Shown one piece after another: positions 25,511-62,603 of a stretch of 64,000 nt of DNA. The stretch is from Flavobacteriales bacterium. Lineage in GTDB: Bacteria > Bacteroidota > Bacteroidia > Flavobacteriales_F > PHOS-HE28. A program made the translations under genes and the position numbers. The number at the start of each line of letters is the position of its first letter. Position 1 is the stretch's first letter. Location of the stretch: positions 1,024,245-1,088,244 of the forward strand of contig JAMLHB010000001.1 in the NCBI GenBank assembly GCA_023957375.1, given 5' to 3'. The notes below the pieces were generated by a model that was given only the letters and a program-made list of their open reading frames with translations, was not told the DNA's origin and searched no databases.

Positions 25511-25602
<92 letters not shown>

Positions 25603-25608
25603 CCACGC

Positions 25609-25636
25609 AAACCGTCCGCCGAAAGGCGGGCGGTTT
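25609..25636 (+). terminator. Terminator hairpin after tRNA-Ser
   Basis: The stem AAACCGTCCGCC/GGCGGGCGGTTT with loop GAAA is followed by GTTC. The flanks of this hairpin (from 25601 and to ~25653) recur in inverted orientation in the array immediately downstream, with the hairpin apex replaced. Confidence 0.75.
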
Positions 25637-25655
25637 GTTCGTTCCGGGGATCACC

Positions 25656-25976
25656 AAGCGCAGCTTGAAGTGATCCCCGGAACGAACAAACGGGGAGCGG
25701 AGCGACACGGTTTGCGTGGTGATGCCTCCCCCCTCCGGGATAGCGCGCCTCGCGCAATCCCCCAAGCGCAGCTTGAAGTGATCCCCGGAACGAACAAACG
25801 GGGAGCGGAGCGACACGGTTTGCGTGGTGAAGCCCCCCCTCCAGGATAGCGCGCCTCGCGCAATCCCCCAAGCGCAGCTTGGAGTGATCCCCGGAACGAA
25901 CAAACGGGGAGCGGAGCGAGCCGGTTTGCATGGTGAAGCCCCCCCTCCAGGATAGCGCGCCTCGCGCAATCCCCCC
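25656..25976 (+). repeat. Three-unit ~107-base array derived from the tRNA-Ser terminator
   Basis: Units start at 25656, 25764 and 25870 with AAGCGCAGCTTGAAG (GGAG in the third). Each continues with TGATCCCCGGAACGAACAAA, then GGGAGCGGAGCGA, then GGTTTGCGTGGTG (TGCATGGTG in unit 3), a C-rich spacer and a hairpin GGAT-A-GCGCG-CCT-CGCGC-A-ATCC (25737-25761, 25844-25866, 25950-25972). The arms are the reverse complement of the tRNA-Ser terminator flanks at 25601-25653. The terminator apex is replaced by the GAGCGGAGCGA segment. The same architecture, with different arms, follows tRNA-Pro(CGG) at 61940. No gene is present; the ORFs that cross it are repeat artefacts. Confidence 0.9.
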
Positions 25977-47163: not shown

Positions 47164-47271
47164 TGGTTGTTAGTTGTTAGTTGTTAGTTGTCAGTTGTCA
47201 GTTGTCAGGGCAGTACGACCAACAACTCACAACTGACAACCGACAACTGTGTACTGACAACCGACAACTGA
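47164..47271. repeat. Inverted heptad array (GTTGTCA/TGACAAC) directly before clpB
   Basis: Left arm: GTTGTTA x3 then GTTGTCA x3, each exactly seven bases. After GGGCAGTACGACC comes the right arm of CAACTGACAAC and CGACAACTG words with one interrupting GTGTAC. It ends nine bases before the clpB ATG, so the transcript leader would be a long hairpin covering or bordering the ribosome-binding region. Confidence 0.9.
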
Positions 47272-49947: not shown

Positions 49948-50037
49948 CAGTTGCCGGTTGCCAGTTGCCGGTTGTCAGTCAGTTGCCAGTAGCCGGTTGT
50001 TAGTGGCAGAGCCTGGCAACTGACATCGTACAACTGC
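49948..50037. repeat. Inverted heptad array (GTTGCCG/GTTGCCA)
   Basis: Words GTTGCCG, GTTGCCA, GTTGTCA and GTAGCCG repeat with a 7-base period. After GAGCC a shorter right arm (TGGCAACTGACATCG, TACAACTG) is inverted. It begins 14 bases after the clpB stop. Confidence 0.8.
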
Positions 50038-56862: not shown

Positions 56863-56968
56863 GTTGGTTGTCAGTTGTCAGTTGTCAGTTGTCAGTTGTT
56901 GGTTGTCAGTTGTCAGTGTCAGATGATCGAGCCACCGCCTGACAACTAATAACTGACAACGGACAACT
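56863..56968. repeat. Inverted heptad array (GTTGTCA/TGACAAC), second locus
   Basis: GTTGTCA repeats at least six times with a 7-base period, followed after GATCGAGCCACCGCC by TGACAACTAATAACTGACAA and CGGACAACT. The word is the same as at 47164. It starts two bases after the HIRAN stop and ends 28 bases before the hepT ATG. Confidence 0.9.
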
Positions 56969-57683: not shown

Positions 57684-57752
57684 CGTTGTTAGTTGCCAGT
57701 TGCCCGTTGTTCGTGGCACCGCCTGACAACTAACAACTGACAACTGACAACT
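57684..57752. repeat. Inverted heptad array, third locus
   Basis: CGTTGTT, AGTTGCC, AGTTGCC and CGTTGTT words, then GTGGCACCGCC, then TGACAACTAACAACTGACAA followed by CTGACAACTG. Word and centre (CACCGCCTGACAACTAA) are shared with the array at 56863, so these two arrays flank the hepT-mntA module on both sides. Confidence 0.9.
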
Positions 57753-57787
57753 GCGTCCTTGCCTATCTTTCACCCACTCTCCCACCC

Positions 57788-57930: not shown

Positions 57931-58005
57931 TTTCAGGTTTCCATTTCAGCTTTCAGCTTCCCACTTTCACATTTCAGCTTTCACCTTTCCACTTTCACCT
58001 TTCCG
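57931..58005. repeat. Heptad array, pyrimidine-rich, one arm (TTTCACC/TTTCAGC)
   Basis: Words TTCAGCT, TTCCCAC, TTCACAT, TTTCACC and TTCCACT repeat with a 7-base period over ~75 bases. No convincing inverted partner was found nearby. The following ~95 bases before 58100 show no other clear feature. Confidence 0.7.
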
Positions 58006-61792: not shown

Positions 61793-61870
61793 CGGGGTGT
61801 AGCTCAGCCCGGTTAGAGTGCTACGTTCGGGACGTAGAGGCCGGTGGTTCGAATCCACTCACCCCGACCA
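61793..61870 (+). tRNA. tRNA-Pro (anticodon CGG)
   Basis: The acceptor CGGGGTG pairs with CACCCCG. The anticodon stem CTACG/CGTAG closes loop TTCGGGA (CGG), the T loop is TTCGAAT, and the CCA end is encoded. It is the second proline tRNA in the window. Confidence 0.95.
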
Positions 61871-61873
61871 GTG

Positions 61874-61906
61874 AAAAGCCCCTGCAACTTCGTTGCAGGG
61901 GCTTTT
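61874..61906 (+). terminator. Terminator of tRNA-Pro(CGG)
   Basis: The 15-base-pair stem AAAAGCCCCTGCAAC/GTTGCAGGGGCTTTT with loop TTC runs into TTTTT. It is the parent of the array that follows. Confidence 0.85.
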
Positions 61907-61939
61907 TCATGCGCCGCCAAACCAAGCGCAGCTTGAAGT

Positions 61940-62276
61940 GCAGGCGGCGCATGAAAAAGCCCGGTGAGCGGAGCGAGCCAAGGCTTTTCAATGGAGCTCC
62001 CCCACCTTGGATAGCCCGCAGCGTAGCGCGGGCAATCCACGATCCCCGTGTGCAGGCGGCGCATGAAAAGGCCCGGTGAGCGGAGCGAGCCAAGGCTTTT
62101 CAATGGAGCTCCCCCACCTTGGATAGCCCGCAGCGTAGCACGGGCAATCCACGATCCCCGTGTGCAGGCGGCGCATGAAAAAGCCCGGTGAGCGGAGCGA
62201 GCCAAGGCTTTTCAATGGAGCTTCCCCACTTTGGATAGTCCGCAGCGTAGCGCGGACAATCCACGATCCCCGTGTG
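61940..62276 (+). repeat. Three-unit 112-base array derived from the tRNA-Pro terminator
   Basis: Units start at 61940, 62052 and 62164. Each reads GCAGGCGGCGCATGAAAA, then a CCGGTGAGCGGAGCGAGCCA segment, then AGGCTTTTC. The first unit is preceded by AACCAAGCGCAGCTTGAAG, as in the tRNA-Ser array. The arms are the reverse complement of the tRNA-Pro terminator and its tail (GGCTTTTTCATGCGCCGCC), with the apex replaced. Hairpins GGAT-A-GCCCGC..GCGGGC-A-ATCC occur at 62009-62038 and 62121-62150 (one imperfect). At 62233-62262 the stem reads GTCCGC..GCGGAC, a compensated change. No gene is present. Confidence 0.92.
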
Positions 62277-62411: not shown

Positions 62412-62603
62412 ATGACACGCAAGTACAAGATCACCTTCATCCTCAAGAGCCGCCGCAACATGGCCGTATACACGGACCTGTCACACATGAGCGACGAGGA
62501 ATTGGACGACCATTACCGCACGATGGTGCGGCGCATGCGGCGCAACGAAAGTGCAGTGATCGCGCGCATGGTGCTCAGGCAGCCTACCTTCAGCCTGAAC
62601 TGA
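62412..62603 (+). CDS. Small basic protein, function unknown
   Basis: 63 residues from ATG 62412, MTRKYKITFILKSRRNMAVY to MVLRQPTFSLN. It is rich in Arg and Lys with one short beta-like start and a helix SDEELDDHYRTMVRRMRRNE. No family recognised. Confidence 0.55.
   Translation: MTRKYKITFILKSRRNMAVYTDLSHMSDEELDDHYRTMVRRMRRNESAVIARMVLRQPTFSLN

Follow-up and report, generated by a model that had tools for sequence, protein, structure and literature searches.

We analysed a 64,000-nt stretch of Flavobacteriales DNA (hereafter, the window) and found an unrecognised recurring structure at tRNA gene ends, namely an element whose shape is kept, whose sequence is almost free to change, and which adjoins genes of one and the same tRNA family in numerous lineages of a major phylum, members of other classes among them. 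The full unit is approximately 150 nt long and begins at the tRNA 3΄ end. Its tRNA-sense strand forms a four-way cloverleaf consisting of a closing stem, a terminator hairpin, a long arm and a third arm, and at its end the unit carries a C-run followed by a copy of the tRNA T-stem.

The array behind tRNA-Pro(CGG) (3΄ of 61793–61870) contains three tandem copies with a period of 112 nt and 96% matches (61938–62276). The earlier note had described such an array with inverted arms, and both points were confirmed; the strands at 61899–61918 and 61943–61962 are reverse-complementary at 20 of 20 positions. The parts of this array are as follows.

61793–61870, + strand: tRNA-Pro(CGG), the anchoring gene (ARAGORN, Rfam)
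61872–61880, + strand: left strand of the closing stem (a), TGAAAAGCC (DNA fold, inverted repeat)
61882–61898, + strand: arm 1 (b), the tRNA terminator hairpin (DNA fold, inverted repeat)
61899–61918, + strand: left strand of arm 2 (c), GGGCTTTTTCATGCGCCGCC, comprising the T-tract and its flank (inverted repeat, 20/20 complementary to 61943–61962)
61922–61938, + strand: tip of arm 2 (core 1), CCAAGCGCAGCTTGAAG, with a GCA triloop (motif scan, DNA fold)
61943–61962, + strand: right strand of arm 2 (c΄) (inverted repeat)
61963–61979, + strand: arm 3 (core 2), GGTGAGCGGAGCGAGCC, with two G-C pairs, a GGA triloop and GA/GA flanks (DNA fold, motif scan)
61982–61990, + strand: right strand of the closing stem (a΄) (DNA fold, inverted repeat)
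61998–62004, + strand: C-run before the T-arm mimic (sequence; conserved across species)
62008–62039, + strand: T-arm mimic, TGGAT..hairpin..ATCCA, whose right strand is the tRNA-Pro T-stem strand (DNA fold, cross-species comparison)
62050–62167, + strand: partial unit 2, the right half of the cloverleaf plus the T-arm mimic (direct repeat, 98% to copy 1)
62162–62276, + strand: partial unit 3 (direct repeat, 96% to copy 1)

The tRNA-proximal sequence GAAAAGCC is found again, inverted, at positions 61982–61994. A 63-aa ORF lies 3΄ of the array (62412–62603); it has relatives in 31 related MAG loci (62–75% identity), many of them also 3΄ of tRNA-Pro(CGG), and matches no Pfam family above the cut-off.

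An array of the same kind stands behind tRNA-Ser(GCT) in the window.

25511–25602, + strand: tRNA-Ser(GCT), the anchor of this first array (ARAGORN)
25602–25720, + strand: full cloverleaf (DNA fold, z = –9.95)
25602–25615 and 25707–25720, + strand: closing stem; 25616–25629: terminator hairpin (DNA fold)
25654–25670, + strand: tip of the long arm; 25695–25705: core 2 (DNA fold, motif scan)
25737–25761, + strand: T-arm mimic, GGGAT..ATCCC (sequence, cross-species comparison)
25654–25975, + strand: tandem part, three copies of 106–108 nt (TRF)

The core GAGCGGAGCGA and the longer sequence CCAAGCGCAGCTTGAAG are common to the two arrays, in both of which the later copies are partial units lacking the left half that carries the terminator hairpin. 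The core begins at 25695, 25803 and 25909 in the tRNA-Ser(GCT) array and at 61966, 62078 and 62190 in the tRNA-Pro(CGG) array, that is, once per copy. The earlier note had counted CCAAGCGCAGCTTGAAG among the shared parts; it does occur in both arrays, but the tRNA-Pro array holds a single copy (61922–61938), and partial units 2 and 3 are without it. Against shuffled controls, which had been proposed as a check on a chance core, 11 matches to GAGCGGAGCGA (≤1 mismatch) were observed in the window where 1.85 were expected, and 10 matches to CCAAGCGCAGCTTGAAG (≤3 mismatches) where 0.33 were expected; the observed count was reached in 0 of 100 shuffles in either case.

We folded positions 61871–62050 as single-stranded DNA in the tRNA-sense orientation, and the four-way junction was the minimum-energy structure (z = –7.9), followed by a T-arm-like hairpin at 62008–62039. 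The antisense strand was of equal stability, but the cloverleaf was not its minimum. The long arm (61899–61962) ends in the tip CAAGC-GCA-GCTTG, and the third arm (61963–61979) is GC-GGA-GC with GA/GA flanks. The core does not replace the apex of the terminator hairpin, as had been thought, but forms a separate third arm, and the terminator hairpin at 61882–61898 is intact beside it; being a GNA-capped mini-hairpin, the common 'core' is a structural cap. The GGAT..ATCC hairpin formerly regarded as a spacer is present; its right strand is the T-stem strand of the tRNA itself, and this copy often runs on through the acceptor strand. The left strand of the hairpin also matches the tRNA concerned, being GGGA at Ser loci and GTGGA, AGGA or TGGA at Pro loci. 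The same cloverleaf was the minimum-energy DNA fold at L381, L376 and L118 (z from –5.1 to –7.8); at L345, one of five loci DNA-folded together, it was not the minimum-energy structure.

The genome has 43 tRNA genes; we inspected the region downstream of each, and the architecture was present at six of them and at none of the other 37. These results correct the count of two loci made in the earlier note and rule out a two-locus coincidence; an artefact or chance is ruled out by the shuffles together with the conservation across species. The six carriers are all four tRNA-Ser genes, tRNA-Pro(CGG) and tRNA-Leu(GAG), and the presence of all four Ser genes among six positives of 43 was significant (P = 1.2e-4). 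In a wider tRNA set, mirror-arm scores rose to 24 at Ser and Pro(CGG) and to 16 at Leu(GAG), with a maximum of 10 in shuffles; two further high scores (Gln, 21; a Gly, 28, at L189) came from unrelated hairpins. The units at Ser(GGA), Ser(CGA) and Ser(TGA) have tips, junctions and closing stem in common, but Ser(GGA) has a long arm unlike that of Ser(CGA)/Ser(TGA), with matched differences on its two sides. The description of these arrays as terminator-adapted holds for tRNA-Pro, where arms a and c overlap the terminator, but not for these three Ser loci, at which c/c΄ is unrelated to a terminator and the first hairpin has no T-run, with the architecture unchanged. The association is with tRNA genes, mainly tRNA-Ser, and not with terminators in general. 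Copies away from tRNA genes were sought in this genome by sequence patterns, and none was found; core and tail patterns outside tRNA loci hit only chance, coding or unrelated sites, and the other GAGCGNAGCGA sites were coding or unrelated, all without the element. Apart from tRNA-Glu, which has another kind of direct repeat, the non-carriers are followed by a plain terminator or by none. This repeat, downstream of tRNA-Glu(UUC) (G000:C1:1641988-1642059; L068), duplicates the tRNA 3΄ end in direct tandem together with the entire terminator; a C-run and a hairpin precede the repeated tRNA end. It is possibly a distant relative of the element without mirrored arms.

Orthologous loci were compared within the genus (Flavobacteriales MAGs); many of the genomes used in this work are fragmented MAGs. 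At the tRNA-Pro(CGG) and tRNA-Ser(GGA) loci, many species had the element, with arms that differed entirely, and others lacked it; for Ser(GGA), 22 of 36 distinct loci in the genus carried it. Genomes of the class Bacteroidia were searched with a tail pattern (CCCC, up to 14 nt, GGGATCA, 4–24 nt, TAATCCC), and 14 of 149 matched, compared with none for the reversed control. Wherever a tRNA was included in the matched locus, it lay 43–313 nt upstream on the same strand, and it was a tRNA-Ser in all cases but one, a tRNA-Pro. In the phylum sample, eight genomes matched, three of them 3΄ of tRNA-Ser; the class and phylum patterns represent one tail variant only, and these counts are therefore minimum numbers. 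Two of the loci, L376 and L381, belong to other classes (two families) and have the element 126 nt behind tRNA-Ser. The phylum-sample matches without a nearby tRNA (L377–L380 and L382) look like chance. The same architecture was also seen in G024 (Ser, Pro and Arg) and G033 (Ser and Pro). Taken together, the element occurs behind tRNA-Ser in about a dozen families of Bacteroidia and two families of other classes, and the median distance from the tRNA to the C-run is 123 nt in the genus and 127 nt outside it. The proposal of an architecture-defined class whose members share a core and have inverted arms specific to each locus is supported across both genus and phylum. One exact pattern scan of viral contigs gave no match. 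At L348 (G034), the sequence in front of the element resembles a tRNA-Ser 3΄ end but is not called as a gene by the tRNA finder; it is possibly a disrupted or displaced tRNA end. A separate observation concerns G033, from another Bacteroidia family, in which a second dispersed palindrome, AAAACAGCAAGAGCATAC..TATGCTCTTGTTGTTTT, stands behind Arg, Met and Phe tRNAs with a similar sequence at each locus (L250, L256, L326, L327 and L332).

Pairing within the arms was compared for 60 elements, and the mean score was 21.4 with an arm's own partner, 9.2 with a swapped partner and 7.5 with a shuffled one. The own partner was the best partner in 19 of 20 Ser(GGA) orthologues and in 8 of 14 among the less diverged Pro(CGG) orthologues. 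Beside 2004 Watson-Crick pairs, the arms contained 44 G-U and 39 A-C mismatches (23 and 20, respectively, when counted per 31 sequence clusters), and the G-U share was 2.1%, compared with 7.7% in the tRNA stems of the same loci, for which the tool scores canonical pairs only and its A-C count is uninformative. The arms thus pair without an RNA-type G-U bias, although balanced G-U and A-C counts could also be expected from terminator transcription of both strands. GCGNAGC tips numbered 99 in sense and 0 in antisense orientation in the 60 units, 46 versus 0 in the 31 clusters, and 10 versus 1 outside the genus; GNA accounted for 42% of GCxyzGC loops in the element versus 4.9% in the rest of the window. 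Sequences of the type d(GCGNAGC), such as d(GCGAAGC) and those with other GNA loops, form exceptionally stable DNA mini-hairpins (PMC4686876). RNA folding energies favoured neither strand. The low-wobble stems and the sense-only GNA caps suggest that folded single-stranded DNA of the tRNA-sense strand fits better than RNA. GNA caps are stable in RNA too, and conserved tips within the genus are partly inherited and not independent events.

The loci also differ in content in ways that bear on gain and loss. At tRNA-Ser(GGA), the order in G014, G056 and G044 is tRNA, unit, copy of the tRNA 3΄ end (ATCCCTCTCTCTCCGC) and older terminator, and in G007 and G042 the terminator is directly at the tRNA. 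These are filled and empty alleles, respectively, the former having the tRNA 3΄ end twice, as expected of a tRNA-targeted integrative element. No gene was seen inside the units. Other origins are conceivable, namely ordinary tandem duplication from one AATCC stretch to another for the duplicated 3΄ end, and loss for an empty allele. Neighbouring units in G011 and G003 have differing arms, each self-consistent, and in G002 a different unit type adjoins the tRNA and is followed by partial units similar to those found in related species. Related units were found at different tRNA-Ser loci of one genome, with 90% identity between Ser(GGA) and Ser(TGA) in G003 and 87% between Ser(TGA) and Ser(CGA) in G000 (shuffled maximum, 75%), a sharing that could also reflect gene conversion. 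Tandem units that include the tRNA 3΄ end occur at six loci (L177, L118, L224, L231, L089 and L078); the window arrays repeat a partial unit instead.

We tentatively favour the reading that this is a non-autonomous palindromic element anchored at tRNA 3΄ ends across Bacteroidota, for which folded single-stranded DNA would matter, and regard it as quite possible rather than probable. The unit sits exactly at the tRNA 3΄ end, preferably that of tRNA-Ser, and provides hairpins, usually including a terminator, directly behind the tRNA. The relevant molecule would be the tRNA-sense strand as folded single-stranded DNA; copies of the tRNA 3΄ end might recombine to add, remove or multiply units, the element acting like a tiny attachment-site element moved in trans. 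The perfect pairing of its arms might be maintained through hairpin-templated correction (template switching), through selection for the folded single-stranded DNA, or through both. Support comes from the position, the conserved cloverleaf, the complementarity within each element and the strand-specific GNA caps, and further from the filled and empty alleles, the relatedness of units found at separate tRNA-Ser genes within a genome, and tandem growth. That these are phylum-wide minimal mobile elements known only by the shape of the folded strand, which recombine site-specifically into tRNA-Ser 3΄ ends, is unlikely in our estimation; recognition by shape (the GNA-capped cloverleaf and the T-stem mimic) would leave the stem sequence free to change.

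Termination or insulation is the main rival, and a passive mutational product is the second. The element might be a cis-acting transcription element, that is, a reinforced and often bidirectional terminator or insulator behind highly expressed tRNA genes, in which the tRNA-side hairpin would stop sense transcription, the mirrored half with its A-tract would stop antisense transcription, and tandem units would add strength. Arm 1 with its T-tract has the shape of an intrinsic terminator in most units, and in many the mirrored half is a hairpin with a T-tract on the other strand; the deeply conserved position (median 123–127 nt from tRNA to C-run) suggests use, and selection acting on both strands would agree with the equal numbers of G-U and A-C mismatches. 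At Pro and at many Ser loci, arm 1 can be seen as a hairpin with a T-run, and a simple terminator scan listed none in the region. We consider this explanation somewhat unlikely, in view of the three Ser units of this genome that have no T-run, the plain terminator or none at its other tRNA genes, and the T-stem/acceptor copy, the sense-only GNA caps (99:0) and the tRNA-Ser preference, which it leaves unexplained. Alternatively, functionless and immobile palindromes might have been made and homogenised by replication template switching at the terminator hairpin and then tandemly duplicated. That template switching can generate perfect stems and restore imperfect ones is established (PMC8794818; quasipalindrome papers), and the arms do change in matched pairs with pairing kept and few wobble intermediates. 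However, a purely local process would not keep what is seen across families and in two further classes, namely the recurrence of cloverleaf, caps, C-run, T-stem copy, spacing and tRNA-Ser preference, and most other tRNA ends of the genome show nothing similar, making such an origin quite unlikely.

Mobilisation by a RAYT (Y1 transposase), as for REP/REPIN-type elements, would agree with small intergenic palindromes that have variable stems and form single-stranded DNA hairpins, and Y1 transposases were detected in 33 of 45 genomes of the order, nine of them encoded in this genome. It is nevertheless very improbable, since no GTAG/CGTC tag was seen at the foot of the units on inspection, there is no genome-wide dispersal, and G040, G044 and G060 (94–99% complete) carry full units without a Y1 match, suggesting that Y1 transposases are not required there. 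Equally improbable is a structured regulatory RNA produced by read-through from tRNA-Ser. The strand-specific GNA caps and the strong predicted fold would suit it, but the G-U share is 2.1% versus 7.7% in tRNA stems, neither strand folds better than the other as RNA, the element lies beyond the terminator in most loci, and no convincing Rfam family match was obtained.

In the Rfam scans, only tRNA exceeded the gathering score; the best non-tRNA matches were below threshold, and rtT was not matched. Among open-licence papers, we found no description of such an element. The element matches none of the catalogued families searched, and its newness rests on these comparisons together with the open-licence literature. 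The tyrT repeats of E. coli (rtT) are 178-bp repeats, each with 19 bp of the tRNA 3΄ end. They resemble the present arrays as tandem repeats directly behind a tRNA gene with units bounded by copies of the tRNA 3΄ end, but here a conserved cloverleaf, free arm sequence, GNA caps, a T-stem mimic and tRNA-Ser genes across a phylum are involved. Integron attC sites are variable in sequence, have a conserved single-stranded DNA fold, and can form tandem arrays; the element shares such a structure-conserved, sequence-variable fold and the possibility of tandem arrays, whereas it sits at tRNA genes and no gene cassettes were seen in its units. Integrative elements with attachment sites at tRNA 3΄ ends insert exactly there, and a duplicated 3΄ segment restores the tRNA. 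The likeness lies in the insertion exactly at the tRNA 3΄ end and the duplicated 3΄ segment, and the difference in a unit of approximately 150 nt that is gene-free. REP, BIME and REPIN sequences and their RAYTs (PMC3733652) are similar in being short intergenic palindromes, some in arrays, with compensatory stem changes. In contrast, the element is without a visible GTAG/CGTC tag, undispersed, tied to tRNA 3΄ ends, far longer in its multi-arm fold, and present in some genomes without any Y1 transposase match. Quasipalindromes formed by template switching (PMC8794818, PMC7202029) likewise show matched changes in both arms and near-perfect stems, and the process is a precedent for homogenised stems (PMC8794818), but the element is a complete multi-arm architecture that is found again and again at tRNA loci, both orthologous and paralogous.

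Since shape is conserved and sequence is not, repeat finders and sequence-profile tools overlook such elements. If mobile, this would be an extremely small, structure-recognised mobile element; if cis-acting, it would hint at some process, as yet unknown, at the ends of tRNA-Ser genes. In both cases, it offers a natural system in which to measure how inverted-repeat arms stay identical.

Several other repeats were noted. Tandem repeats of 7 nt (GTTGTTA, GTTGTCA, CTGACAA and TTTCACC) occur in the window at 47166–47271, 49948–50004, 56867–56922, 57723–57753 and 57931–58004. Similar 24-mers at G000:C2:694-696 kb were rejected as coding repeats, and approximately 16 copies of a 237-bp repeat at G000:C2:693500-697500 (L073) apparently code for a repeat protein. 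Finally, a 376-nt repeat in a non-tRNA region (L039/L040, G000:C1:12059-12445) has copies that vary in a hairpin-like stretch.
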